IMG/VR virus record: IMGVR_UViG_3300030049_000063
Coordinates: 1-24,985 of that record
Source: a virus
DNA: 24,985 bases
Reading direction: 5' to 3' (one strand)
In this document: piece by piece, positions 4,431 through 19,481 of the stretch
Layout of the letters: every line of letters begins with the position of its first letter
How positions within the stretch are numbered: position 1 is the first letter of the stretch
Translations under genes and position numbers: made by a program
Notes under the pieces: generated by a model
The model's database searches: none
Told to the model about the DNA's origin: nothing
The model's input: the letters and a program-made list of their open reading frames with translations, nothing else

Positions 4431-5326
4431 TCCGACTCAATCCTGATTCAAAAAAAATCACACCTGATGACACAATGAACTATGACTGGTTCAATGCCCT
4501 TCAAGACGAAGTTTGTACCCCGATTGAAAAAACGCAAACGCTTTCAGAACGACTTGATCAGCTTGCTACCTCCATTCAAAATATCATCGCTGGCTCAGGC
4601 TTCGACTTAGGAGAGGTTGCAGATTATAGTGGAAATCCTGTTCCTATTCCTCAGCTGATCATCAAGCCTAACGAAGTAAAATCATTCACTCTGTATCTGG
4701 ATATTGCTCTGAAAAATCCACTTCTTTTAGAGAATCAAGAAAACTATGCACAAGATGCTGGATTTAATTACGCTTTAAACTTTCCTCTGGATACATCGAG
4801 TTCTCAATTTAAGGATCTTTCTGTTATTTTGTCATCCAATGATATTTTAGAAAAAAGGTCAACGAGTTCTCTACCAACTGATCACGCGATGGTGAATGAC
4901 TACATGCCTATCAGGCTCCCTGAGAATTTGAAAGATTTACCCCGCACAGAGGCCATTTCTCTTCTTAAGAAAATAAACGCCACCGTTTTATGCATGAGGC
5001 CCACATCTCTTGTGACTTATGTATTTGGACCTAAAAACAAAGGAATTTCAAAATTAGAAGAAGGCACCTCGTTTGTTGATTTTTCAACCGCTCAGAGCTT
5101 CTTTTCAAAGCTTTGTGCTGAGTTGCATATCCCTTCATGGGCATTTCAAGACGGACAGGAAAAGATTCCATTGTCTTCTTATTATCTCTTCGCTACTTTT
5201 GTTCCGCCCGTCATTCTCGCCAGCAATCCAGAAGGACAGATTTATTATTTTTTCAATAAAATGATGTATGGCGATTTTTTGAATGTCAGATTAGGAATCT
5301 TTAACTTATCCCAACACCCGGTCTAA
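4427..5326 (+). CDS. Tail-fibre-like protein, paralogue 3
   Basis: A 299-residue protein with a four-base ATGA overlap with paralogue 2. 'MNYDWFNALQDEVCTPIEKT' near residues 16-35 is a third copy of the N-terminal motif. The C-terminal segment 'PEGQIYYFFNKMMYGDFLNVRLGIFNL' parallels the endings of the two previous proteins. The central ~200 residues are unique and contain no motif I recognise. It is the last gene of the structural block; an 82-base gap with a palindrome follows. Confidence 0.65.
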   Translation: MIRLNPDSKKITPDDTMNYDWFNALQDEVCTPIEKTQTLSERLDQLATSIQNIIAGSGFDLGEVADYSGNPVPIPQLIIKPNEVKSFTLYLDIALKNPLLLENQENYAQDAGFNYALNFPLDTSSSQFKDLSVILSSNDILEKRSTSSLPTDHAMVNDYMPIRLPENLKDLPRTEAISLLKKINATVLCMRPTSLVTYVFGPKNKGISKLEEGTSFVDFSTAQSFFSKLCAELHIPSWAFQDGQEKIPLSSYYLFATFVPPVILASNPEGQIYYFFNKMMYGDFLNVRLGIFNLSQHPV

Positions 5327-7064: not shown

Positions 7065-7775
7065 ATGCGAAAAGTAAAAATAGGTTCAGTTATTTTATTA
7101 GGCAAGCATCGCCTGCTTTGCGGAGATAGCAGGAACCCAGAACACATCGAAAAGCTGATGGATGAAAAGATGGCTGACGCTGTGATTACTGACCCACCTT
7201 ACAACGTCGATTACAAAGGTGAAGAAGGGGAAGCCATTAAGAATGATCTTCTTTCTGAGCGACGTTACAAAGACATGCTGTTTCAAACATTTTCAAATTC
7301 AATTGATTATAGCAAACGAGGTGCTGCTTTTTATTCCTTCATTGGAACGAATGCTATGGATCTTGGAATCAGTTCAATTCGAGATGCGGGATGGAAAATT
7401 AGGCAAAATCTCATCTGGGCTAAACATCATTTTACTTTGTCCAGGTCCCCTTACCACTGGAAGCATGAAGCACTTATTTTTGGAGCGGCTCCTGGTGCAC
7501 CCAGCCCGTGGTATAGTGACCGCAAGCAAACTACTTTGTTAGAATTTCCTATTGAGGTGAAGGACCGCATTCATCCCACACAGAAGCCCAAGGAATTGAT
7601 TAAGTACTTATTAAAAAACTCGACCAAGGAGGGGGACATTATTCTTGATCCATTCGGAGGATCAGGGACAACTTTATTGTCTTGTGAGGCAATGGGACGA
7701 AGGGCTTTTATCTGTGAAATTGACCCCAAGTGGTGCATGGCAATTATGGAGAGATGGAGTAGAAAAATCGTTTAG
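7065..7775 (+). CDS. Beta-class DNA methyltransferase (N6-adenine/N4-cytosine type)
   Basis: A 236-residue protein with AAGGAG ten bases before its ATG. The catalytic motif DPPY is at residues 43-46 and the AdoMet-binding motif 'DPFGGSGT' at about 195-202. The DPPY-first order defines the beta class. 'RIHPTQKPKELI' before the second motif is another usual element. The N-terminal 'HRLLCGDSRN' is typical of phage and ParB-associated orphan methyltransferases. No restriction endonuclease gene is adjacent, so it is likely solitary and may protect the element's DNA or mark it for regulation. It ends the + strand late block. Confidence 0.92.
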   Translation: MRKVKIGSVILLGKHRLLCGDSRNPEHIEKLMDEKMADAVITDPPYNVDYKGEEGEAIKNDLLSERRYKDMLFQTFSNSIDYSKRGAAFYSFIGTNAMDLGISSIRDAGWKIRQNLIWAKHHFTLSRSPYHWKHEALIFGAAPGAPSPWYSDRKQTTLLEFPIEVKDRIHPTQKPKELIKYLLKNSTKEGDIILDPFGGSGTTLLSCEAMGRRAFICEIDPKWCMAIMERWSRKIV

Positions 7776-7974
7776 TAGTTTTATTCAAGTGTTTCATATA
7801 CTTAGAATAGAGAATCCATATGTAACGTACTCTAAGGAGTGTCTATCCTTCACGTAGGGAGGCCAAGTTGAAAAAAAATAAATTTTATACTTGAAATATT
7901 TATAAAAATTTAGTTTATTCGAGATGCTGATATTTTTATGGGCAAAGATTTTTATATTGAAAGTAGAGTGCCTT

Positions 7975-8964
7975 ATGAAAAAATTTAAATTTTTTATATT
8001 TATCTTGTGGTTCTTAAATTCTACTTATGGTTTTGCTACCCTATCTTTTCAAACTAAAACCACTTTAAATGGACTTGGAAGTAACTGGGTAAATGACGTG
8101 TTTGTGGTTGGAGATACTGTTTATGCTGCTACCGCTGGAGGACTCTCCATTTCTGATAATGGGGGTGAAACTTTTGTAAACCGAACTGAAACAGACGGTT
8201 TAGGAAGCAACGAAGTATTGGGTGTTTTTGTAGTAAATCAATTCGTTTATGCTGCAACCAGATGGGGAGGTCTTTCTATATCATCAGATGGAGGAAAAAC
8301 TTTTGTTAATCGAACTGAAAATGATGGATTAGGAAGTAATTCAGTTTATTCAGTTTTTAAGAAAAACAGCATTATCTATGCCGCAACAGAAGAAGGGTTC
8401 TCCATTTCTAATGACGATGGAAAAACTTTTGTTAATCGAACTATGGAAGATGGATTAGGTAGTGATAATACTTGCTATGTCCATGCTATAGATAAGGACC
8501 TTATAGTATGCACTGAGGATGGTCTTTCTTTTTCAAGAGATGGTGGAAAATCATTTGTAAATCGCACATTTCACGATGGGTTAGGAAATAATTGTACTTT
8601 CCGTATAATTGGAAATAGAGATCATCTTTATATTGGGACTTCGAATGGTTTCTCTATCTCTCTAAATGGAGGAAAAACTTTTACTTATAGTCCTGTCAAC
8701 CCAAAAGCTGCCTATGATAGGGTCTATTGTATTCAGGAAAAAGACGGTGTGATTTATGCTGGGACTGACGGGGGTGGAATATTCATTTCCACTGATCAGG
8801 GTAAGTCATTTATTTGTTTTAATAAGGAAGATGAGTTACCAAGTCAGAGTATTCTTTCTATCTATGTAAGTGATGTAAAGATTTATGTAGCAACAGAAAA
8901 AGGGCTAGCTGTGTCATTTTTACAAACTAATGCTTCTTCTGATGAACAGATTATTCGACAATAA
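7975..8964 (+). CDS. Secreted Asp-box (BNR-like) beta-propeller protein
   Basis: A 329-residue protein. The ATG at 7975 gives a clean signal peptide ('MKKFKFFIFILWFLNSTYGF'); an in-frame start at 7924 would precede it with a second hydrophobic stretch and is less likely. Six Asp-box units follow at roughly 45-residue spacing (SDNGGETF, SSDGGKTF, SNDDGKTF, SRDGGKSF, SLNGGKTF, STDQGKSF) and a seventh partial blade ('IYVATEKGLAVS'), suggesting a seven-bladed propeller. Blades 1-4 share 'F-V-N-R-T' and 'DGLGSN', almost identical in DNA too. No catalytic sialidase residues are recognised, so it is more likely a binding protein. The gene is flanked by AT-rich gaps and looks like cargo rather than a virion gene. 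Confidence 0.8.
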   Translation: MKKFKFFIFILWFLNSTYGFATLSFQTKTTLNGLGSNWVNDVFVVGDTVYAATAGGLSISDNGGETFVNRTETDGLGSNEVLGVFVVNQFVYAATRWGGLSISSDGGKTFVNRTENDGLGSNSVYSVFKKNSIIYAATEEGFSISNDDGKTFVNRTMEDGLGSDNTCYVHAIDKDLIVCTEDGLSFSRDGGKSFVNRTFHDGLGNNCTFRIIGNRDHLYIGTSNGFSISLNGGKTFTYSPVNPKAAYDRVYCIQEKDGVIYAGTDGGGIFISTDQGKSFICFNKEDELPSQSILSIYVSDVKIYVATEKGLAVSFLQTNASSDEQIIRQ

Positions 8965-9086
8965 TGCTTACTTAATTATTTTTAATAAATAATAATTTAA
9001 TCTCTACATTCGTAATAAGATCAAGTAAGAAAAAATTTATTGTAAAATATAAGTTTAGTTTTTTTTAAAATTTACGATAAAAACTC

Positions 9087-10325
9087 ATGAGGCTTATTGA
9101 GTTTAAATCCATTTCTGTATGGATTTGCTTTGCCTATTTTTTTTTATTATTTTCTCAAAAAATTCATGCTGGTTTCATGACTTATCATGAAGCTATACTT
9201 AAAATTGAAGACTCAATTTCAAGTATAGCTGACACAACAAAAAGAGGCATAGAACAACATAAATTTAAACAATGGAAAGCCAGAATAGAACAGATAAGAC
9301 AATTGAGTCAAGTAGCATCTGTAGAACATCCTGTTGTTATTTCAATAACTTCCAGCCCTGAACGACTAAAACATGTTCCAACTGTTTTAAGTCTGATTCA
9401 AGACCAAATCACCAAAGATTACATTAAAAAAGTGATCATTGTTTTACCTGAAAAATTTAGAGACAATATGGATTATAATCCAGAAGATATTCAACCTTTG
9501 AGCAATCTTCATGAAAAGGTTGAAGTTCAAAGGATTTCAAAAGATCTTGGTCCAATTACAAAAATAATCCCCGCTATAGAGTGGGCCAATAAGCATATGA
9601 GCTCGGGAAAAGTACTATCAATAGATGATGATATAGCGTATTCACCATCATTAGTCCATGTATTAGCTCAGGCTGCACATGAACCAGAAACTGTCTCTAG
9701 TGGAGGAGGAAGTAAAAAACAACGATGGAATATTCCTGAAGACTTTCCTCAACAGTTACCTCATCATGATTCAAAAAGCGCTAATTATGTAGATGTCATT
9801 GAAGGTTACGGAGGAGTCCTTTATCCACTTAATATAAATACTGAACTAATGAAAGCATTAGTTGATCCAAAATTTACAAGTCAATCATGTAAACTCTCTG
9901 ATGATCTCGTAATTAGTTTCGTATTGGCTATTCAAAATATTTACCGAGTCAAAGCTAGTGGGAGTTTAGTTCCTATTTTCCACATCCCTTATGGGAATCA
10001 AGCGGACGCTCTTCACAGTACTGCACCCAGTGATCTACTGATAACAGACTTAAGACAAGTAGATGCCATTAAGTATCAAGATTGCTATAAAAAACTACGA
10101 GAAGTATCTTATGATCATGAACATAAAAAATTTAAAACTACAGAAGAAATTATGGCTGCCTATCATCAAAAAATACATGAATACGTAGAACAATCATCAG
10201 CAGGATGCACGAGTTCATATTCTTCTTCTCCAGATCCACTAGGGCATGTGGCTCAACAAGGGGCCGAAAGTGTTCGAGTTGTAACAGGTCATGTATTACA
10301 AGATCAAGAAGCAGAAAAAAAATAG
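9087..10325 (+). CDS. Glycosyltransferase-like protein with N-terminal signal/anchor
   Basis: A 412-residue protein. Residues 1-28 form a signal peptide or membrane anchor ('VWICFAYFFLLFSQKIHA'). A GT-A-like domain starts at about residue 82: 'VVISITSSPERLKHVPTVL', then 'KKVIIVLPEKFRDN', 'LGPITKIIPAIEW', and a triple-Asp metal-binding motif 'SIDDDIAYSPSLV' (Asp180-182) corresponding to the DXD motif. A later 'SDDLVISFVLA' probably supplies the acceptor-side acidic residues. The donor and acceptor sugars cannot be inferred. The C-terminal ~80 residues are low-complexity Ser/Gln/Glu. Glycosyltransferases usually stay in the cytoplasm, so the leader suggests either inner-membrane anchoring or export as an effector. 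No strong ribosome binding site is seen. Confidence 0.72.
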   Translation: MRLIEFKSISVWICFAYFFLLFSQKIHAGFMTYHEAILKIEDSISSIADTTKRGIEQHKFKQWKARIEQIRQLSQVASVEHPVVISITSSPERLKHVPTVLSLIQDQITKDYIKKVIIVLPEKFRDNMDYNPEDIQPLSNLHEKVEVQRISKDLGPITKIIPAIEWANKHMSSGKVLSIDDDIAYSPSLVHVLAQAAHEPETVSSGGGSKKQRWNIPEDFPQQLPHHDSKSANYVDVIEGYGGVLYPLNINTELMKALVDPKFTSQSCKLSDDLVISFVLAIQNIYRVKASGSLVPIFHIPYGNQADALHSTAPSDLLITDLRQVDAIKYQDCYKKLREVSYDHEHKKFKTTEEIMAAYHQKIHEYVEQSSAGCTSSYSSSPDPLGHVAQQGAESVRVVTGHVLQDQEAEKK

Positions 10326-10387
10326 TTTTTTACTACAACCTTTATTTTCATAAAAAATATTTAACATTCTTTAAATGAAGAAATACT

Positions 10388-11383
10388 CTAAATCCCCAAG
10401 AACTTTCCACTGAACTCTCCAGGTCTTGCGTGTAAATATTCCCCTACCGTGGTGAGTTTCGAATGCCCGAGATTTTTCTGTAAAACATGAAGCGAACACC
10501 CACGATCCAAGGCATGCGAAGCGTGGCAATGTCTCAACCAATGAGGCGAGACCTTCCTAGTAATCCCAGCACGCATAGCTGCATTTTTCACGATCAAATG
10601 AATCTGACGAATAGAAATTCTCCCCTGCACTCTTGAAATCAACACAGGGTCAAAATCCCGAGCGTCTTTTTGCCTGAGCTTCAACAAATCCTGAAAAACT
10701 CCAGAAGACAAACCCACCGTTCTTTTCTTGTTCCTCTTGCCAATGACAGTAACTTGTCCCTCTCCATTTTCTCGCTCTTGGAGAGCATCCCAATTCAGGC
10801 TGACCAGTTCACTGACTCGGAGGCCTCCACCATAGAGAACTTTTAGGATGGTTCTGTTTCTAAAATCAGTGGTCCGGTCGACCATCCTAAAAACTTCTTC
10901 TTGAGATAAATAGCGCTCGGTAATCTTATTGTGGGCGTCGATTGATTTTAAGTCTTCTGCTGGATTCTCTGAGATGTATTTTTTCTTTCTCGCAAATTGA
11001 AATAAAGATTTGATGATAGCGACTCTCTGCTTTTGAGTATGTGCGCTTTTGTGTTTTGCTAAATCCATGAATGATTGAATAAAGGATTCACTCACCTCTT
11101 TGAGCGACTTGTCACCTAGACAATCCAGAAGTTCACGGGACACTCGCTTGTAATCGACCTGTGTTTTTTTAGCTTTTCCGTGGAGCCAGAGTTTAATCAA
11201 ATCCTCATCTCGCGCCCAAGAAATTCGAAGCTTTGCCATATCGAGTTCAGACTCAGTGCTTAGAGGGTCATTTTTAGTATCTGAAGCACTCAAAAATGCA
11301 GGGTTTTGAACTGTCCCGATACGTTGATTTTTAGAAATCTCCTGAAAATCTCGCTCGTTTCCTAGAGGAAAAATCGTGTCCAT
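10388..11383 (-). CDS. Tyrosine recombinase (XerC/D-like integrase)
   Basis: A 331-residue protein with the complete catalytic set: Arg189 in 'GGGLRVSEL', Lys216 in 'VIGKRNKKR', His281 and Arg284 in 'HWLRHCHASH', His307 in 'LGHSKL' and the nucleophile Tyr316 in 'VGEYLH'. A SAM-like core-binding domain occupies about residues 60-145. The recombinase could integrate the element, resolve multimers or move the neighbouring TA pair. The first ~48 residues are unlike Xer proteins; translation may begin at Met49 (codon at 11237-11239), which would leave the 25-bp repeat at 11285-11309 outside the gene. Neither start has a good ribosome binding site. It lies downstream of higBA on the same strand, 20 bases apart. 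Confidence 0.93.
   Translation of the reverse strand: MDTIFPLGNERDFQEISKNQRIGTVQNPAFLSASDTKNDPLSTESELDMAKLRISWARDEDLIKLWLHGKAKKTQVDYKRVSRELLDCLGDKSLKEVSESFIQSFMDLAKHKSAHTQKQRVAIIKSLFQFARKKKYISENPAEDLKSIDAHNKITERYLSQEEVFRMVDRTTDFRNRTILKVLYGGGLRVSELVSLNWDALQERENGEGQVTVIGKRNKKRTVGLSSGVFQDLLKLRQKDARDFDPVLISRVQGRISIRQIHLIVKNAAMRAGITRKVSPHWLRHCHASHALDRGCSLHVLQKNLGHSKLTTVGEYLHARPGEFSGKFLGI
11285..11309. repeat. Direct repeat copy 1, with TCAAAA/TTTTGA inverted arms
   Basis: About 25 bp, running from AGCACTCAAAA through ATGCAGGG to TTTTGA, recurs at 12134-12159 with one extra G. Inside it TCAAAA and TTTTGA form perfect inverted arms around an 8-bp spacer, the geometry of a tyrosine-recombinase core site. 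Both copies are preceded by AGGGTC (11264-11269 and 12125-12130). This copy lies in the 5' part of the recombinase gene as annotated, or just upstream of it if translation starts at Met49. Confidence 0.6.
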
Positions 11384-11402
11384 TGGTTCTAAAACCTAGG
11401 AC

Positions 11403-11723
11403 TTAGAGTTTTCTTAAACGAGCCAACGTATCTGGAAATTTCTGTACAAGTAAAATGAGTGCTGCCGCTTGATCATTCGGTTTGCTACGTCCTTGTTCCC
11501 AATTTTGCAACGTCCGCTGATTCACTTGAAGCAAACTTGCAAAGACACCTTGGGAAACATGCAACGTTTCCCTAACATTCCGAATCAGCTTCCCACTGAC
11601 TTTAGGAAGTTCGATGGATTCTACTTTGTGAGTTTTCAAGGTAAGTTTTTCTTCACGATGCTTGCGCATCGATTCAACTCCCTCGACCAGTTCACCAAAA
11701 ATATTACGTTTTCCGTTTTTCAT
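11403..11723 (-). CDS. higA: HigA-type antitoxin, Xre-family HTH
   Basis: A 106-residue protein from the ATG at 11723, which has AGGGAAG upstream; a 17-residue longer frame reads only into the toxin gene. The C-terminal half is a classical Xre helix-turn-helix: 'SGKLIRNVRETLHVSQGVFASLLQVNQRTLQNWEQGRSKPND'. In toxin-first (HigBA) modules the antitoxin blocks the mRNA-cleaving toxin and represses the operon by binding an operator over the promoter. The gene overlaps the toxin by 20 bases. The palindrome at 12084-12106 is the likely operator. Confidence 0.88.
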   Translation of the reverse strand: MKNGKRNIFGELVEGVESMRKHREEKLTLKTHKVESIELPKVSGKLIRNVRETLHVSQGVFASLLQVNQRTLQNWEQGRSKPNDQAAALILLVQKFPDTLARLRKL

Positions 11724-12078
11724 AGGACTTCCCTTGTTTTCTTTTTTTCGATCGTGCTTCCTTCTCTGTATCAATCAACACTTTCAAAGCCTTCTTTTGC
11801 TGCGAACTTAAATCATCGGCTTCATTCTTGTCGTAGACAGTCAGAAACCAGATTTGCGCATCATCAGGGAAATGGTAGTAAATCACTCTTAATCCGCCTC
11901 GTTTGCCTTTTCCCCTGCGACTATCTAACCATCGCAATTTTCGAAAGCCTCCCGTTCCTTGAAGCACATCCCCAGCTTCTGGGCTTTCCATCAAGAAGTT
12001 CTGCATTTCCCTAAAAGACTCATCGGCCAGATATTGTGCCTGATATCGAGTAAATGCAGGGGCTTCAATAAACTCCAT
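11704..12078 (-). CDS. higB: HigB/RelE-family mRNA interferase toxin
   Basis: A 124-residue protein matching the HigB-2 pattern: 'MEFIEAPAFTRY', 'ESPEAGDVLQGTGGFRKLRW', 'GKGKRGGLRVIYYHF', 'IWFLTVYDKNEADDLS', then a basic C-terminal helix. These toxins cut mRNA at the ribosome. The C-terminus beyond residue ~105 is strongly Lys/Arg-rich, extending past the usual fold. Toxin precedes antitoxin, as in higBA. The start codon lies only six bases beyond the predicted -10 box, so the mRNA may be leaderless. Confidence 0.88.
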   Translation of the reverse strand: MEFIEAPAFTRYQAQYLADESFREMQNFLMESPEAGDVLQGTGGFRKLRWLDSRRGKGKRGGLRVIYYHFPDDAQIWFLTVYDKNEADDLSSQQKKALKVLIDTEKEARSKKRKQGKSYEKRKT

Positions 12079-12083
12079 AGCTT

Positions 12084-12112
12084 ACTATACGCTATTTACG
12101 TATAGTTGTCAA
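12084..12112 (-). promoter_or_regulatory. higBA promoter with overlapping palindromic operator
   Basis: Read on the - strand, a perfect -35 TTGACA (12112-12107) and a -10 TATAGT (12089-12084) are separated by 17 bases. The inverted repeat ACTATACG (12084-12091) / CGTATAGT (12099-12106) spans the whole spacer and the -10, an ideal site for antitoxin repression. The predicted transcription start falls at about 12077-12078, at the toxin ATG. Confidence 0.8.
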
Positions 12113-12133
12113 TTTTATTTTTACAGGGTCTTT

Positions 12134-12159
12134 AGCACTCAAAAATGCAGGGGTTTTGA
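12134..12159. repeat. Direct repeat copy 2, upstream of higBA
   Basis: Second copy of the repeat at 11285-11309, here with a 9-bp spacer between TCAAAA and TTTTGA because of one extra G. It lies in non-coding DNA just beyond the higBA promoter. The two copies are in the same orientation 849 bp apart and bracket the whole TA operon. Confidence 0.6.
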
Positions 12160-12299
12160 TCGAAATCTTCAGAAATGTGGGAAATGGGTTTTTTTGAAGG
12201 ATCTCTCAAAAGTAAGACTATTCTACTAAGGTATACCAGTATTACTTTACTAATTTAATATGCTATTACTTCACTCATCCGACTCTTCCACTCAGACTA

Positions 12300-12395
12300 C
12301 CACTAATTCCTCTTAGTGGACGTTCGGAGAGACGAGGAAAGCCCCCTTTTTGGGGCAGCGGGGCACGGATTTTTAGAAATCCATCTCTTTTTTAA
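12300..12395 (+). ncRNA. Candidate structured RNA ending in a terminator-like hairpin
   Basis: The 433-base gap 12079-12511 has no gene but holds three hairpins in a row: CCACTAA/TTAGTGG (12300-12319), GCCCC/GGGGC (12341-12356) and GGATTT/AAATCC (12367-12382). The last is followed within a few bases by TCTTTTTT, as in an intrinsic terminator. The segment is GC-rich in an AT-rich surround. This could be a small plasmid RNA (for example copy control or a TA-like RNA) or a leader for the gene at 12512. No convincing promoter was found, so confidence is low. The rest of the gap holds nothing else I can name. Confidence 0.3.
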
Positions 12396-12511
12396 AACTC
12401 GGAAAACTCGGTATAAACATAGAATATCTCTGTACCAAAAGTTTTTACTGGATTAAATCCTGGAGATGATGGAAGATTTTAAAAAATAGCGTACCGTTCA
12501 AAAAGGAATTT

Positions 12512-13102
12512 ATGGATTTAGCGCTCAGATATCCGATGATCGTCCAAGTCATCACCCGAAACGACCGCGACATTTTTTATGGCTGCGTCCCTGATTTTGG
12601 AATTGAAACCTACGAAGTGGTCGATCCTGGCAACGTTCCGCAGGAATACATGTTTCATGTGAAGTTAAGACGAATGATCCGAGAATCCATTGCGGTTTAC
12701 AACGCCGAAGAAAAAGAACTTCCGTTGATTCGTGTTGCCTCTTTGGGCTACAGCTCCCCTGCCCTTCCTTATAATGATGATGAAGATCAAAAATCCGTTT
12801 CAACAACTCTTGCTGCCCAAATGCTAGGAGTTCACCCCGACACGATCCGCAGTCTTTTTGATTCCGGAATTCTCAAAGGCTCTCTCACTCAGGGAGGTCA
12901 GAGAATAATTCTGGTCTCCTCCATTAAAGAAGAAGAAGCTCAAAGGACTCAACGAGCAGAACTGAGAAAGCTTGAACTCCGAGCGAAAATGAAGAATTCA
13001 AAGCGCAAACAGCGAAGGATTCAGAAGCAGAAAAAAGAAAAGCTGGAACGTTTTCAAGCAAACATGGCCGAGCTTACTCAAGCAGAGAATTCACTCTTAT
13101 AA
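12512..13102 (+). CDS. HicB-like/HTH DNA-binding protein with basic tail
   Basis: A 196-residue protein with AAGGAA before its ATG. The N-terminal half ('YPMIVQVITRNDRDIFYGCVPDFGIETYE', then a long helix to about residue 65) resembles the HicB antitoxin fold. Residues 97-125 ('STTLAAQMLGVHPDTIRSLFDSGILKG') are a MerR/excisionase-type helix-turn-helix. Residues 138-190 form a very basic Lys/Arg/Gln-rich helix. It is probably a DNA-binding regulator. No HicA toxin gene is adjacent, so it is not a complete hicAB pair; an excisionase-like or partition-related role is an alternative. Confidence 0.6.
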   Translation: MDLALRYPMIVQVITRNDRDIFYGCVPDFGIETYEVVDPGNVPQEYMFHVKLRRMIRESIAVYNAEEKELPLIRVASLGYSSPALPYNDDEDQKSVSTTLAAQMLGVHPDTIRSLFDSGILKGSLTQGGQRIILVSSIKEEEAQRTQRAELRKLELRAKMKNSKRKQRRIQKQKKEKLERFQANMAELTQAENSLL

Positions 13103-13155
13103 AATTGAAAGAGATTCAAGCGTATTGAGACTGAAATACAGGTGGAATTTAGTAT

Positions 13156-13172
13156 GTAATTTAGTAAATTAC
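13156..13172. repeat. Inverted repeat GTAATTT-agt-AAATTAC
   Basis: A perfect 7-bp inverted repeat with a 3-base centre in the gap between the HicB-like gene and parA. It could be an operator. It is separate from the TCATCNGATGA sites further right in the same gap. Confidence 0.35.
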
Positions 13173-13235
13173 AGTTCATTTCTGAATATCATACTTGTTC
13201 GCTCCCTACTCCCGCGTGTGTAGCTGCAAATGTAC

Positions 13236-13341
13236 TCATCACCGATGATAAATTATCATCTGATGACAACTTTTTTTTATTATTGTAAATTATTTTTTCA
13301 TGGAATAACATATCATAGGATGACAGAAGATCATCTGATGA
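13236..13341. promoter_or_regulatory. TCATCNGATGA palindromes upstream of parA (putative operator/centromere sites)
   Basis: Exact TCATCTGATGA palindromes lie at 13256-13266 and 13331-13341, a one-mismatch copy TCATAGGATGA at 13313-13323, and a split version (TCATC, three bases, GATGA) at 13236-13248. The last two full sites are exactly 18 bp apart. The same 11-mer at the same 18-bp period recurs inside the gene downstream of parA. The rightmost site ends 13 bases before the parA start, so occupancy should repress the operon. Confidence 0.6.
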
Positions 13342-13354
13342 CGAAAGGCAAGGA

Positions 13355-14344
13355 ATGGAACCGAAATTTTATACTTCTTCTGATATACAGAAGATTTTCA
13401 AAGTAGATAAAGATACCTTAAAAGAACTAGAATTATCAGGTAGTTTCCCTGTACCTGAAAGAATTAAAAAAGGTGCAATTTCGGTCAAAGCTTGGCCTAT
13501 TAGTAGTCTCCCCAGTTTCGGACTAAAATGTGGTTTTTTTAAAAAACCCAAAAAAAGAATTACAATCACTGTATTCACTCAAAAAGGCGGGGTTACAAAG
13601 TCATCCTACACCCATTGTTTAGCAAGAGTCCTAGCACTAAATGGTATTAATGTTCTTTTGATTGGTCTAGATTCACAACTTTCTGTTACGACATTTACAT
13701 TTCCTGGACTTGGACTAGAAGAATTAAGGGCTCTTAAGCCTGGCCTGTACCATCACTTTTATGAGAATGCTTCTCTTGATGAAGTAATTCGAGCCACAGA
13801 CATCCCTACACTTAAAACAATACCTGAAACTTCTGAAATAAAAGCTCTCAATGAGAAAATAGAACGAGCCAGAAATAAGGAAGCGTTTTTTAAAGAAAAA
13901 CTCATGCCTCAACTGATCAATTTTGATTGTATAATTTTTGATAATGGCCCAAGTTGGAATAATCTTATTGAAAACTCAATTGTTGCAGCTGATACTCTCA
14001 TATCACCTGTCTCTTGTGCAATTGGAACATTAAATGTCCTACCTCAAAACCTAGAGGAAATAGCAGAATTTCAAAAAGATCTAAAATTAAATTTTGATTT
14101 TATAATGGTGCCAACACTTTTGGACCATAATAATAAGCTCAGCGCACAAATTTATAACGAATATAAAAATAATTATCCAGATAACTTGCTTCCATTCCCT
14201 ATCCGAAAAAGTGTCAAAGCAGAAGAAGCTCAAGCTTTTAATATCTCATCAATCGAATATGACCCTTTAAGTCCTGTTTCTATAGATTATTATCAATCCT
14301 TTTGCGAACTATGGAAACGGATCAACCCAGAATACGCCAATTGA
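13355..14344 (+). CDS. parA: ParA-family partition ATPase with N-terminal HTH
   Basis: A 329-residue protein with an AGGA ribosome binding site just before the ATG. Residues 1-55 form a MerR-like DNA-binding region ('YTSSDIQKIFKVDKDTLKELE'). The ATPase domain follows: deviant Walker A 'KGGVTKS' (77-83), 'VLLIGLDSQLSVT' as Walker A', and 'IIFDNGPSWNNL' in the Walker B/switch position, then 'DTLISPVSCAIGTLNVL'. This resembles type Ia plasmid ParA proteins, which use an N-terminal HTH for autorepression and the ATPase to move plasmids over the nucleoid. It is shorter than P1 ParA. The next gene, 12 bases downstream, should encode the partner. Confidence 0.9.
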   Translation: MEPKFYTSSDIQKIFKVDKDTLKELELSGSFPVPERIKKGAISVKAWPISSLPSFGLKCGFFKKPKKRITITVFTQKGGVTKSSYTHCLARVLALNGINVLLIGLDSQLSVTTFTFPGLGLEELRALKPGLYHHFYENASLDEVIRATDIPTLKTIPETSEIKALNEKIERARNKEAFFKEKLMPQLINFDCIIFDNGPSWNNLIENSIVAADTLISPVSCAIGTLNVLPQNLEEIAEFQKDLKLNFDFIMVPTLLDHNNKLSAQIYNEYKNNYPDNLLPFPIRKSVKAEEAQAFNISSIEYDPLSPVSIDYYQSFCELWKRINPEYAN

Positions 14345-14356
14345 GGTAACTAAGTT

Positions 14357-15169
14357 ATGACCATTCCATCAGGAATTTTACAAAGAAAAGCCGTACAACC
14401 ACCAAAGAAAACCTATAGTAACATCCCACTTCGATCAAGCGCTAAAAAAGAAAATCAATCATCTGATGACAGTTCATCATCAGATGATCATCGGACAAAC
14501 GAAGATAAAAAATCCCAGCCTGATAAAAAAACATCTGATGTTAAATCACCATCGGATGAGGATCTACTTAATTTTACAGATTTAAAAACAAAGAACCAAA
14601 TAGATGAGGATGCTACTTCTAATTTAATTAACCAAAACATAACATCATCCGATGATATAATACCATCAGATGATGATCGCTCACTTAATCAGCCTTCCTA
14701 TATAAATAGTAGTAAATCCAACTTACAAGACTCAAAAGTTTCTCAGCCATTATTAGATAAACCTATCCTGTCTTTATCAACTCCTACAATAAACCTTAAT
14801 AAAGACACGTGTAAAATATCATCTAATGATGATTTACAATTAGATGATATTTTATCATCAGATGCTATTTCAATAACAAATAATTCCATCCCTAAACTAA
14901 TAAAAAAAATAACATTCCATGGGTTCTCCCTAAGAGAGGTAAGGATTATTAATTTTATCTTTAGCATTTGTTACCCTAAGCTATTTACCCCTAAGAAAAT
15001 ATCCTTATCAGAGTTCTTTACTATTCCTGGAGTAGATAAGTCAGTTTTTTACAAAACTATAAATCCTCTAATTGAATCTGGTGTCATTATTAAAATTGAA
15101 ACTAAAGTAGAAGACGGATTAAGGCAAGAATCTAACCTTTACTCTTTAAAAGAGTCATTCTTTACTTAA
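14357..15169 (+). CDS. Putative ParA partner (centromere-binding protein), SSDD-repeat, C-terminal winged-helix-like
   Basis: A 270-residue protein directly after parA. It lacks the ParB/Srx nuclease-like motifs and is not a ParB I recognise. Residues 1-170 are disordered and rich in Ser/Asp/Lys/Asn. They contain recurring SSDD-type tetrapeptides at residues 35, 41, 59, 65, 97, 103, 155 and 167, each encoded by a TCATCNGATGA-like palindrome. Residues ~178-265 ('FHGFSLREVRIINFIFSICY', 'ISLSEFFTIPGVDKSVFYKTINPLIESGVI') look like a winged helix-turn-helix. By position it should bind the centromere and stimulate ParA. The N-terminus may contact ParA. Family membership is unknown to me. Confidence 0.68.
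   Translation: MTIPSGILQRKAVQPPKKTYSNIPLRSSAKKENQSSDDSSSSDDHRTNEDKKSQPDKKTSDVKSPSDEDLLNFTDLKTKNQIDEDATSNLINQNITSSDDIIPSDDDRSLNQPSYINSSKSNLQDSKVSQPLLDKPILSLSTPTINLNKDTCKISSNDDLQLDDILSSDAISITNNSIPKLIKKITFHGFSLREVRIINFIFSICYPKLFTPKKISLSEFFTIPGVDKSVFYKTINPLIESGVIIKIETKVEDGLRQESNLYSLKESFFT
14459..14865. repeat. TCATCNGATGA palindrome array inside the ParA-partner gene
   Basis: Copies at 14459 (TCATCTGATGA), 14477 (TCATCAGATGA), 14531 (ACATCTGATGT), 14549 (CCATCGGATGA), 14645 (TCATCCGATGA), 14663 (CCATCAGATGA), 14819 (TCATCTAATGA), 14837 (degenerate, half site AGATGA) and 14855 (TCATCAGATGC). They form groups with members exactly 18 bp apart. The central base varies, and most other positions keep the dyad. 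All are in codon phase and encode Ser/Pro/Thr-Ser-Asp/Asn-Asp or close variants. Confidence 0.65.
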
Positions 15170-15232
15170 TAAAACAAAATCAAAATAGTAGTTGCCTTTT
15201 TCAAGTTATCCGTAAATTTGTCAAAATTACTA

Positions 15233-15270
15233 TTTCGTAAGTGCAGTTAAAACTTTCTCGTAAGTGCAGT
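15233..15270 (-). repeat. Two iterons in inverted orientation
   Basis: TTTCGTAAGTGCAGT (15233-15247) and TTTCTCGTAAGTGCAGT (15254-15270) are reverse complements of the main iteron, with the CTTACG variant. Placed away from the main cluster, they could serve initiator handcuffing or copy control. Confidence 0.75.
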
Positions 15271-15442
15271 AGTCTATGTCTTTTAGTTAAAGTTGCTTTT
15301 TAACGTACAAACAAAGTTAGTGTGATTGGTAATTAAAAACGGTAAAATCATTTTTTAACAACTTTTAGCAACCTTATTCAGAATTCATCTCAGTAAGAAT
15401 CTCACTTATCATTAAGGTTCACTTATATTGAATTATCCACTA

Positions 15443-15459
15443 ACTGCACCTACGAGAAA
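15443..15459 (+). repeat. Isolated iteron
   Basis: ACTGCACCTACGAGAAA, an exact consensus copy. The sequence TTATCCACT at 15433-15441 just upstream is a one-mismatch DnaA box. Confidence 0.75.
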
Positions 15460-15653
15460 GAAAAAAACTCTTTTTTATTAACGTTTTAGACAGTCCAGTG
15501 TATTCTCATAAAGTAATGAAACAAGACTCGAAATGGCCTGTTAGATTATTTTTTGTGTGCAAAGATTATTTAAATGGGTTTATAGCCCACCACCAACAAG
15601 CACAAACAGTAGAATTATATAATTCACTTATTCGTTCTTTTACTAGCCAGACA

Positions 15654-15670
15654 ACTGCACCTACGAGAAA
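15654..15670 (+). repeat. Isolated iteron
   Basis: A second exact consensus copy, ACTGCACCTACGAGAAA, 44 bases before the main cluster. Confidence 0.75.
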
Positions 15671-15713
15671 TAAATTAACAAAAGTAATAGCGCTGCTATC
15701 TTTTTTTCTCCCA

Positions 15714-15911
15714 ACTGCACCTACGAAACAATCCACTGCACTTACAAGAAAGTTTTCTACGCTTAACACTGCACCTACGAGAAATTTCACTGCACCTACG
15801 AGAAAAAGTTATCCACATACTGTTTTCCTCACTGCACTTACAAGAAAATCCACTGCACCTACGAAACAATCCACTGCACCTACGAGAAATTTTCACTGCA
15901 CCTACGAGAAA
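15714..15911 (+). repeat. Main iteron cluster (eight direct copies)
   Basis: Copies start at 15714, 15735, 15768, 15789, 15831, 15852, 15873 and 15895, mostly 21-22 bp apart, about two helical turns, so that initiator monomers bind one face. The consensus is ACTGCACCTACGAGAAA, with variants CTTACAAGAAA (15735, 15831) and CCTACGAAACA (15714, 15852). The two variants occur side by side in a repeated order, suggesting block duplication of part of the array. Confidence 0.88.
15809..15817 (+). promoter_or_regulatory. DnaA box
   Basis: TTATCCACA, an exact DnaA-box sequence, sits in the gap between iterons of the main cluster. Confidence 0.7.
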
Positions 15912-15944
15912 GCGCGACTATTGAAATTTTTAGTGTTTTTCAAG

Positions 15945-15953
15945 TTATCCACA
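15945..15953 (+). promoter_or_regulatory. DnaA box
   Basis: A second exact TTATCCACA, 33 bases after the last iteron and next to AT-rich DNA. It supports DnaA-assisted opening at this end of the origin. Confidence 0.7.
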
Positions 15954-15963
15954 ATTTTAGGCA

Positions 15964-15991
15964 TTGGTATGTATGTATGTGTTTTTATAAA
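15964..15991 (+). promoter_or_regulatory. Possible promoter of the replication initiator gene
   Basis: TTGGTA (15964-15969) and TATAAA (15986-15991) are 16 bases apart, a fair sigma-70 match located between the iterons and the initiator start. A short run of GTAT repeats fills the spacer. Placement close to iterons would allow autorepression. Confidence 0.4.
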
Positions 15992-16074
15992 AGAAGATCT
16001 TTTAATACAAACAACAAACAATTTCCGAAACAGTTTTTTCACAAATCGTTAATACCCAGGAAGGGGTTACTTTC

Positions 16075-17673
16075 ATGGCAGATCTTAAGCAACCGTTTAC
16101 TCTAACAATGCAGGAACTAAACGAACCTGAAAAGAATACTCACCCTGCATTTTTAGAACGACAAAATGATCTTCGACTTCGCCCATTTTTTCTTGTTGAA
16201 GCTAACCTAGCAAGTCTTCCTTGGGTTGATTTTGATCGAAACCATAGGAACGGTAAAAGCGATGGGCATGTTTTTAGATATCAAGAAATAGTGGATGGCA
16301 CGATACTGACTTGTACAGTTACTGTTGCAATGCCAAAGGTAGTTCGAAATGGCGAGCTAGTTCAAGACACATTACCAACTCAATTTGATCATGATGTATA
16401 TTTTTGCATTACTGATTTATGGGATGAACAAGGTCGTCCCGCTGATGGTGTTGTTTTTTTTAGGGTAGGGGATATATGTAAAAGACTTCAGATTAATACA
16501 GATTCTGGAAAAAACTATGAAATGGTTAAATCAGCTATTAATCGACTATCTCGTGTTGTTATTACTTCTCAAAATGCATTTTACAGCGCAGACGAGAATA
16601 CTCGAATTGAAGCAGTAATTGACTTAATGAAGTCAGTAACGGTAACAAATCAAAAGAGGAAAATTGATTTAGTAAAGGTAGAGCTTTCAGCTAAAGTATT
16701 AGCAAATCTTAATAAAAATCATACAGCAAAAATTAATCGAGTAATGTACCAACGATTAGAACATGGCTTTTCAAAGCGTCTTTTTAATCTTGTAACCACT
16801 CGTGAACAAATTAACAAAGAGCGTGGGGTTTTTGATTTCGAATTATTTAATCTTGCTGAAATTCTACCGATTAAGGGAGCTAAGTACGTTAGTGAAATAA
16901 AAAATAGGCTACGCCGCGCAGTTAAAGAACTACAAACAAAAAATATATTTTTTTGTGAATTTATTCGACAGTCTAAGAATCACGAAGTATTGAGACTTAT
17001 ACCAGTAGAAAAATCAGTTGAGCTGATTGGATCAGATTCTGTTTTACGTTTCACTGGTATGATCTACGAAATATATGGGAAATCGATTGAGGATATTCTT
17101 CAGGTTCCAAACCAGGCGATTTTTCAATATCTTAAGAAAAACACAAGAGTAATTGAACTTGAAGGTGTTCAATATAGTTGGATATTTCATGCTTTGCACG
17201 TTCTTACTCATCAAAAATTAATTGGAAAATGGGAAGTAAGAAATTTAGGTGCAGCAATTCGTAACACATTAAAACAAGAAGAAATAGATATACCGTTAGG
17301 AATAGGATGGAAACCACTTCATATTATGCAGCAGGAGCTTTTAACTAAAATAAAAGTACAACCTGTTTTAGTAAGTAAGACTGAAGCAACATTTCAACAG
17401 TTAACTGAAATAGAAAAAATGGCTGAAAACTATTTAAACAAACTGCATAAAGATCAATTTGATATATATTTCAAAAATGTTTGCTTAGAAAAGCCTTTCT
17501 TAAAAACTATGAAAATAGAAGCAATGAAGTCAAATACTATACGTGGAAGCATTAAGGAGTTAATCACTAAAGATATTATTAATAGCAATCATATTAAATT
17601 AAAAGATGATGATTTTATGATTAATCCTAATTTAATTGAAAATATTAAATCAGAAAATAACAAAGAGACTTAA
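16075..17673 (+). CDS. Plasmid replication initiator protein (Rep, RPA/Rep_3-like)
   Basis: A 532-residue protein with AGGAAGGGG upstream of the ATG and immediately after the iteron origin. The region of residues ~30-270 has the initiator pattern: an early 'FFLVEANLASLPWVDF', 'FDHDVYFCITDLWDEQG', 'VFFRVGDICKRLQINTDSGKNYEMVKSAINRLSRVVI', 'LVKVELSAKVLANL', and 'MYQRLEHGFSKRLFNLV', as seen in replication initiator protein A-type proteins built of paired winged helices. The protein is expected to bind the iterons and recruit DnaA and helicase. The C-terminal ~200 residues are helical and Lys/Asn-rich without a recognised domain. Confidence 0.85.
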   Translation: MADLKQPFTLTMQELNEPEKNTHPAFLERQNDLRLRPFFLVEANLASLPWVDFDRNHRNGKSDGHVFRYQEIVDGTILTCTVTVAMPKVVRNGELVQDTLPTQFDHDVYFCITDLWDEQGRPADGVVFFRVGDICKRLQINTDSGKNYEMVKSAINRLSRVVITSQNAFYSADENTRIEAVIDLMKSVTVTNQKRKIDLVKVELSAKVLANLNKNHTAKINRVMYQRLEHGFSKRLFNLVTTREQINKERGVFDFELFNLAEILPIKGAKYVSEIKNRLRRAVKELQTKNIFFCEFIRQSKNHEVLRLIPVEKSVELIGSDSVLRFTGMIYEIYGKSIEDILQVPNQAIFQYLKKNTRVIELEGVQYSWIFHALHVLTHQKLIGKWEVRNLGAAIRNTLKQEEIDIPLGIGWKPLHIMQQELLTKIKVQPVLVSKTEATFQQLTEIEKMAENYLNKLHKDQFDIYFKNVCLEKPFLKTMKIEAMKSNTIRGSIKELITKDIINSNHIKLKDDDFMINPNLIENIKSENNKET

Positions 17674-17699
17674 ATTGAAAATTCAGTCTAGGGGGCCAC

Positions 17700-18515
17700 A
17701 TGGACAGGGAAGATCCAAAAGAAAAGAAGCGCGAACGCAATAAAATTAACTATCTCCAAAATAAACCTGAGCTTTTAAGTCGCGCTAAGACGAGATACCA
17801 CGAAAAAAAATTTAATCAACCTGATCAGCTGATAATACCATTTCCTATACGCACACAAACGCCAAATAATAAACGAACGAAGCATAGGCAAAGGTTGCCC
17901 ACTGTAAAATTTCTAAATTCAATTCTTGAGCCTTTTCTGTTCGCCTCGTTGATTATTGTCTCAACCTATTTTTTAATGCGAGAAACCGTTCACTTTCTGA
18001 GTGCAACAGATACGACAGGAGCAGCCTGGTTGAAAGCGATACTAGGGGAGGGGATAGTTCTTGCGCTTTCTTGGGTTCGAGTCCAAGGGATCAAAATGCA
18101 GATTTGGCGAGTCGTGTTGTTGATCGCTTTGTTCTGTTACAACGGTTGGGCGATTGTTGGAGGAGTCTGGACGCAAGGCATGCAAAAATCTACAGCGGCA
18201 ATAGTCATACGTCAGGAAGTCGAAGAATTAAAACGACAGATTGAGCAAAAGGAAATTTTACGCGCTGAGTATCACGATTCAGGTTACGTCACCCTTTCTC
18301 GAAAATACGAGCGTGAAATAGCTGCGCTGCGAAATGAATTAAACCTTGCTCGTGCTGAAATGCTTAAAACTCCGGCTGAAAGTCTGAAAATTAACTTTTT
18401 CAGCTTCGCATTTTTCAGACTCCTCGTCATGTTATCAAATTCTTTTCTCGTTACATATTTTTCAGCCTTTTTAAAAGCGAAACCTGCTCCAGTCCTGCGC
18501 CTTGTGCATGGCTGA
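17700..18515 (+). CDS. Four-span membrane protein with central coiled coil, unknown function
   Basis: A 271-residue protein starting 26 bases after the initiator stop, with AGGGGG before the ATG. The N-terminal ~70 residues are very basic and Gln/Asn-rich. Hydrophobic spans follow at about 74-94 ('PFLFASLIIVSTYFLM'), 108-127, 131-155 ('VVLLIALFCYNGWAIVGGVW') and 230-255. Between spans 3 and 4 lies a charged coiled coil ('EVEELKRQIEQKEILRAEY', 'YEREIAALRNELNLARAEM'). No family is recognised. Linkage to the initiator gene suggests a plasmid maintenance or conjugation-related envelope role, which is inference. Confidence 0.65.
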   Translation: MDREDPKEKKRERNKINYLQNKPELLSRAKTRYHEKKFNQPDQLIIPFPIRTQTPNNKRTKHRQRLPTVKFLNSILEPFLFASLIIVSTYFLMRETVHFLSATDTTGAAWLKAILGEGIVLALSWVRVQGIKMQIWRVVLLIALFCYNGWAIVGGVWTQGMQKSTAAIVIRQEVEELKRQIEQKEILRAEYHDSGYVTLSRKYEREIAALRNELNLARAEMLKTPAESLKINFFSFAFFRLLVMLSNSFLVTYFSAFLKAKPAPVLRLVHG

Positions 18516-19202: not shown

Positions 19203-19481
19203 ATGAACAAATCAGAATTGATTGAAAAGATTGCAGAGAATAAGGAACTTTCAGAACTTAAGAAATCTCAAATAGAGCTGATGCTGAATGAGACTCTCAC
19301 GATTATAAAGAAGTCTGTGAAAAAGGAAGATATCACCCTCATTGGCTTTGGAACATTCTCCAAGAGCAAGCGTAAGGCAAGAATGGGCCGGAATCCTCAG
19401 ACTGGAAAAGAGCTGAAGATTCCAGCGGCAACAGTTCCAAAATTTAAGGCTGGTAGGGAATTTAAGGATTTGGTTCGATAA
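19203..19481 (+). CDS. HU-family nucleoid-associated DNA-binding protein
   Basis: A 92-residue protein of standard HU length. Typical elements are 'MNKSELIEKIAEN', 'DITLIGFGTFSKSKRKARMGRNPQTGKELKIPAATVPKFKAGREFKDLV', including the DNA-intercalating 'GRNPQTG' loop of the arms. It bends and compacts DNA and often assists plasmid origins and site-specific recombination. It is 13 bases downstream of the lysine-rich micro-gene, probably co-transcribed. Confidence 0.95.
   Translation: MNKSELIEKIAENKELSELKKSQIELMLNETLTIIKKSVKKEDITLIGFGTFSKSKRKARMGRNPQTGKELKIPAATVPKFKAGREFKDLVR

Follow-up and report, generated by a model that had tools for sequence, protein, structure and literature searches.

A putative self-encoded centromere and operator array shared by the DNA 5' of parA and the linker-coding part of its partner gene

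Introduction

Both replication and partition offer precedents for DNA sites located inside the gene for the protein that binds them. The lambda replication origin is located inside the initiator gene O, and other lambdoid initiator genes are organized in the same way (PMC4488673); in Stx phages, two extra iterons in this gene add 13 residues to the protein (PMC7466680). In Streptomyces, parS of the SCP2 ParA-ParT-parS system was found by ChIP-seq within the parT coding sequence (PMC12260392).

Here we analyzed IMG/VR record IMGVR_UViG_3300030049_000063 over its 24,985 bases (hereafter, the window). Phage tail-type genes in the left part of the window are followed by an integrase, a ParA ATPase, its partner gene, and an RPA-type initiator, a gene layout that points to a phage-plasmid. 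Repeated sites lie both 5' of parA and inside the partner gene (Table 1), and we consider it probable that together they form a self-encoded centromere/operator array, divided between the DNA 5' of parA and the part of the partner gene that encodes a linker.

Results

Table 1 Features of the partition and replication region of the window
Feature	Coordinates	Strand	Basis
Upstream pair 1: wide-spacer TCATC-ACC-GATGA (13236-13248) and exact TCATCTGATGA (13256-13266)	13236..13266	+	sequence
Upstream pair 2: TCATAGGATGA (13313-13323, one mismatch) and exact TCATCTGATGA (13331-13341)	13313..13341	+	18 bp apart
ParA-type ATPase, 329 aa; HTH-like N-terminal region; deviant Walker A KGGVTKS	13355..14344	+	Pfam, PHROG, tree
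Partner (270 aa) with a short basic region at the N terminus, a low-complexity linker, and a winged HTH at the C terminus	14357..15169	+	
Intragenic pair A, two exact copies: TCATCTGATGA (14459) and TCATCAGATGA (14477)	14459..14487	+	
Intragenic pair B: palindromic variant ACATCTGATGT (14531) and CCATCGGATGA (14549)	14531..14559	+	
Intragenic pair C: exact TCATCCGATGA (14645) and CCATCAGATGA (14663)	14645..14673	+	
Intragenic group D: TCATCTAATGA (14819), half-site CAATTAGATGA (14837), TCATCAGATGC (14855); 18-bp period	14819..14865	+	
C-terminal winged helix-turn-helix domain of the partner, site-free	14930..15169	+	AlphaFold2 pLDDT 79.4, pTM 0.70, order H-E-H-H-E-E
Array of ~21-bp repeats (CACTGCACCTACGAGAAA-like) 5' of the initiator gene	15240..15911	.	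sequence
RPA-type replication initiator	16075..17673	+	Pfam RPA PF10134 E=1.3e-13

Gene content of the window

The ParA-type ATPase matches Pfam AAA_31 (E=3e-27) and the ParA-like PHROG 164 (E=3.7e-31), and it has the ParA/MinD P-loop with a deviant Walker A motif, although KGGVTKS departs from KGGVGK[ST]. Phylogenetically, it falls on a long branch of its own within a supported 19-row clade that includes the ParAs of its relatives (100/100). Throughout this clade, KGGV[TYL]K (KGGILK in Bdellovibrio) replaces KGGVGK, i.e., the glycine before the lysine is substituted.

Based on its model, the C-terminal winged helix is presumed to be the DNA-binding domain of the partner. Its Foldseek neighbors were all weak and included MarR-type regulators, TubR, and AspA, with the N-terminal model of lambda gpO among the viral neighbors. 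No match reached E<=0.001, and neither sequence homology nor strong structural homology to TubR/AspA was detected; the model and the weak matches do show the winged-helix DNA-binding fold that TubR/AspA-like centromere binders have. In Pfam and NCBIfam searches, the partners of the window and its relatives matched neither a ParB/Spo0J nor a CTPase domain, and no family was assigned with confidence. We infer the functions of the partner and of ParA from their position and fold class.

Other features were identified around the locus. The ~21-bp array is probably a set of replication iterons, separate from the par sites. A 184-aa ORF (15498-16052) with STAPTRK-like repeats is open across it; this ORF is probably not a gene, and is still another in-frame repeat array. 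Near the replication/partition region, positions 19203-19481 encode an HU/IHF-type DNA-binding protein (Pfam E=1.4e-26). Adjoining the integrase on the minus strand (11403-12078) are genes for a probable RelE/HigB-type toxin, with a match under the Pfam cut-off, and an HTH antitoxin. A second IMG/VR contig (L005) is identical to window positions 7355-18037, including the whole par locus, and diverges from 18038 onward, which suggests module exchange in the phage-plasmid; because the shared sequence is identical, this contig provided no independent variation.

Repeat sites in the window

The exact motif TCATCNGATGA occurs five times in the 24,985 bases (13256, 13331, 14459, 14477, and 14645), always in the par locus. 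Copies with one mismatch were found in this locus at 13313, 14549, 14663, 14819, and 14855, and a scan of the whole window found others only at 4832, 8281, and 8935. Site 14531 has two mismatches yet is itself a perfect palindrome (ACATC-T-GATGT), whereas site 14837 (three mismatches) is a half-site only, and the right arms of the wide-spacer copy at 13236 and of the copy at 13256 are separated by 18 bp. The unit in the window is therefore two palindromes at a spacing of 18 bp, with two such pairs 5' of parA and four groups inside the partner gene. Upstream pair 2, which stops 14 bp ahead of the parA start, is a possible operator. In promoter and terminator scans, promoter-like sites were no more numerous than in shuffled sequences, and two terminator-like matches on the minus strand were the paired palindromes themselves. 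A previous sequence-only reading of this DNA had listed the sites from 13256 onward, with the same spacing outside and inside the gene and a single codon phase for the intragenic copies; on re-checking, all of its coordinates were correct, pairs were located in both places, and every intragenic copy is in codon frame 0.

Within two mismatches, the motif has 37 matches in the window compared to 14.6 +/- 4.3 in shuffles, none of which (0/100) had as many. The 252-bp intergenic region contains two exact copies, a number that none of 20,000 simulations reached; these copies are not attributable to chance. The partner gene contains three exact copies and seven within one mismatch. When the same protein was recoded using the codon usage of the window, the expected numbers were 0.46 and 1.96 (observed values reached in 19 and 3 of 5,000 recodings, respectively), and when the codon usage of the partner gene itself was used, they were 0.99 and 3.26 (164 and 12 of 5,000). 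The intragenic copies go beyond what the choice among synonymous codons would give. The 7-mer test used for the relatives (see below) was not significant for the window partner against codons shuffled within the gene, because the codon usage of this gene is itself shaped by the motif; for this gene, recoding with the codon usage of other genes was added to the within-gene shuffle. With a single frame for all intragenic copies, which leaves some room for a protein-level cause when the window is taken alone, and just two exact intergenic copies, the case from the window is weaker than that from its relatives.

Relatives and covariation of the repeats

Searches of genome contigs, plasmids, and viral contigs found no homologue of the window partner except at the one identical locus. 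The C-terminal domain is too divergent for a direct homologue search, so ParA was used as a bridge. ParA homologues (~35-41% identity) were identified on plasmids of Legionella, Piscirickettsia, and Bdellovibrio, with more in other gammaproteobacterial genomes. Directly 3' of parA, these relatives encode a partner with a short N-terminal peptide, a disordered linker, and a winged helix, as in the window, and their winged helices share just 14-26% identity with that of the window. A profile of the partner winged helix had matches in 28 of the 143 genomes from the order to which Legionella bozemanae belongs and in 7 of 369 genomes sampled across the class. In one Legionella partner, residues 44-141, which encompass most of the encoded sites, are predicted to be disordered (pLDDT <50). 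Its N terminus (MAIKKGAFELYTQERKLPDK) is conserved and the linker is not, a pattern that would fit a ParA-contacting peptide.

To analyze covariation, the strongest upstream repeat was picked blind to the partner gene and then counted in the partner gene and in parA. A 9-mer coverage test was dropped because it was noisy, with AT-rich upstream DNA matching by chance, and the top upstream 7-mer was used instead. Copy numbers upstream, in the partner gene, and in parA were 14/14/0 and 11/13/0 for GGTTCAC in Legionella-type plasmids (other loci: 17/5 and 9/26 upstream and in the gene), 17/5/0 for GGTAACA in Piscirickettsia (P. salmonis), 9/9/0 and 19/8/0 for GGAACAC in two genomes, and 10/2/0 for CCGTACA. 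For GAGACAC (4/34/0) and AGGTAAC (4/7/1), the repeat was among the top three upstream. The top upstream repeats were mostly above synonymous shuffles in the partner genes, whereas parA had zero or one copy. When seven lineages were cross-matched, each partner was richest in the upstream repeat of its own lineage and nearly empty of those of the others. The diagonal of this table held 77 matches; among the 5,040 permutations, only the identity reached this value.

Upstream and intragenic repeats thus covary among homologues, the comparison that the sequence-only reading had proposed. Its suggestion that the linker has been built from sites that also lie 5' of parA gains support on the homologues from this covariation and from the use of three reading frames described below. 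We also looked for the opposite outcome, homologues that keep SSDD without palindromes or upstream copies, and saw none: SSDD and the palindrome are both absent from the homologues, which keep the double placement with another repeat. The kind of motif differs as well, the window having a palindrome with an 18-bp period and most relatives direct repeats with an 11-bp period. At one P. salmonis locus interrupted by an IS (L011), upstream repeats are absent, whereas the uninterrupted plasmid (L016) has them.

Reading frames, confinement, and placement of the arrays

The 11-bp period of most relatives places successive copies in different reading frames. For example, GGTTCACAAACGGTTCACAAACGGTTCAC reads GSQ-TVH-KRFT, and the intragenic GGTTCAC copies of Legionella-type genes are distributed 36/30/45 over frames 0/1/2, encoding GSQ, VH, and RFT in turn. 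All three frames are also used in the arrays of Bdellovibrio and of two other genomes (G234 and G330). Because one DNA word is read in three frames, selection on the protein cannot be its source.

Repeats cluster beside parA and are confined to the locus in the window and in whole plasmids, with few strays. Among whole Legionella-type plasmids, the par locus holds 18/18 paired sites of pLD-TEX-KL (66.5 kb), 21/22 of L. antarctica, and 15/16 of L. anisa. In the L. anisa plasmid (L090), a lone perfect GGTTCACAAACGGTTCAC pair (28437-28454) lies away from the par locus, in the interval from traT to the gene that follows it. A 215-kb P. salmonis plasmid has 15/15 paired sites in the par locus, the upstream copies being on one strand and the intragenic ones on the other, and Bdellovibrio pBdHAGR1, with the repeat ACCCGATAA, has 8/8 inside the partner gene.

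The arrays are wholly or almost wholly intragenic in three lineages (Bdellovibrio, G330:C24, and G234:C215), and in the latter two they flank the winged helix on both sides. At G105:C3 and G103:C3, 19 copies lie 5' of parA and the gene for the short partner (190 aa) carries none, whereas the sister lineages G052:C3 (6 upstream, 38 in the gene) and G017:C57 (5 upstream, 21 in the gene) have a long partner. Another locus (G036:C3, L078; ParA Walker A KGGVLKT) has 42 nearly perfect 11-bp repeats (AACTAGAG core) arranged head to tail 5' of parA, and its 158-aa partner carries no array. These differences in placement between close kin show that embedding was gained or lost and is not universal. Across ten related Legionella-type genes, the protein is longer the more sites are embedded in its gene (Spearman 0.97). 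There is no more than a suggestion that intragenic copies become fewer as upstream copies increase (Spearman -0.45 over non-independent loci; -0.49, p=0.06 per lineage). Because many in-gene copies result from tandem duplication, copy counts overstate independent events.

Discussion

The sequences themselves document the dual placement of the repeats, their lineage-specific covariation, their independence of reading frame, and their confinement to the par locus, and there is strong support for a function of the intragenic repeats as DNA. Beyond this, we infer that the partner binds the repeats, that these act as centromere and operator, and that partition is the outcome. The locus would thus be a plasmid-type partition system of a phage-plasmid, in which the C-terminal winged helix of the partner may bind the paired palindromes, its N-terminal region may engage ParA, and the sites 5' of parA may double as operator. 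The disordered linker would be a permissive place in which sites are kept and expanded: it tolerates almost any sequence, and therefore the array can grow within the gene, lengthening the protein. Among relatives, the array appears to shift between intergenic and intragenic positions. We lean towards the broader view that this is a widespread partition family that routinely carries its centromere in the linker of its own binding protein, with centromere size, linker length, and specificity evolving as a unit and with an array that moves between intergenic and intragenic positions and is sometimes wholly in the gene.

The main competing explanation is a lambda-O-like origin, in which the partner is a replication initiator or a recruiter of the helicase loader with origin iterons in its own gene, with ParA either a bystander or the link between replication and partition. 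The gpO model among the viral fold neighbors is in line with this, as are the best, sub-threshold matches of the winged helix, which include Phage_rep_O (E=0.019 in the window, 0.016 in L. anisa; 15.9 bits in the window compared to a curated cut-off of 28.7), and matches of the partner to O-like PHROGs (E=0.0026). However, the centromere binders TubR and AspA are equally good fold neighbors, and the partner lies directly 3' of parA at nearly all loci examined, which is the usual parAB layout. The window has a separate RPA-type initiator accompanied by 21-bp iterons, so that the partner is less likely to act in replication, an argument that applies to the window and not to the relatives. Taken together, we regard a lambda-O-like origin as unlikely.

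We hold it to be more improbable still that the sites are transcriptional operators only, used for autoregulation or internal repression of the partner gene, with no centromere. Plasmid partition operons are commonly autoregulated, and the upstream sites of the window lie at about -120 to -14 from the parA start, but arrays of 20-40 copies, and arrays wholly within the second gene, are hard to explain in this way. Lowest in our estimate is a protein-level cause in the window, i.e., that acidic SSDD-type linker motifs were selected, e.g., for ParA contact, and look palindromic since TCA-TCN-GAT-GA naturally codes for SSDD. This would account for the single frame of all window copies, and 3.3 near-matches are already expected under the codon usage of the gene. 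Against it, exact copies with the same 18-bp pairing occur outside any gene (0/20,000), the DNA is largely kept at sites that encode the non-SSDD peptides TSDV, PSDE, SSND, and SSDA, and among relatives the sites occupy all frames, with no conserved SSDD motif.

If the self-encoded array is confirmed, the gene and the DNA element recognized by its product would be one physical stretch that is inherited together and would be hard to split by recombination or by loss of non-coding regions. An 11-bp repeat that must be read in three frames makes this an unusually clean case of dual coding. The arrays located outside, split across, or inside the gene provide a natural series for asking why such placement arises. 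They may also offer a route to predicting centromeres and their binding proteins where the partners of plasmids and phage-plasmids are annotated as hypothetical proteins.

Comparison with known systems

The locus resembles lambda O/ori in that repeats lie mid-gene for the putative binding protein and extra copies lengthen the protein. It differs in that lambda serves replication, not partition, and has its sites in the gene only, whereas most lineages here have matching intergenic and intragenic arrays beside parA, and the Phage_rep_O match is below the cut-off. SCP2 similarly has a ParA-neighbor protein with a site inside its own gene. However, its parS is one 18-bp inverted repeat, in contrast to the arrays in a disordered linker, and ParT is a clamp-like relative of type-I ParB with a C-terminal dimerization domain, whereas the window partner ends in a winged HTH. 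TubR/tubC and AspA share with the partner a winged-helix fold for centromere binding (4asn, 4rs8, and 5k5q are fold neighbors), but this similarity is weak (E ~0.01-0.03) and no sequence relationship was found. To our knowledge, no TubR or AspA sites lie within their own genes. With type I ParABS, the locus shares a deviant-Walker ParA 5' of a putative DNA-binding partner and repeated sites, and it differs by a partner without the ParB N-terminal/CTPase domain and by KGGV[TYL]K instead of KGGVGK in Walker A.

A study of a P. salmonis plasmid reported no iterons (PMC6963756). Full-text literature searches, in which coverage is thin for subscription journals, returned no description of the family. 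The sequence-only reading implied that this arrangement was without precedent, which is less so given lambda O/ori and SCP2 parT/parS. What is apparently new is its form as a partition family, with lineage-specific repeat arrays that are common to the parA upstream region and the disordered linker of the partner, and that sometimes lie in the gene only.
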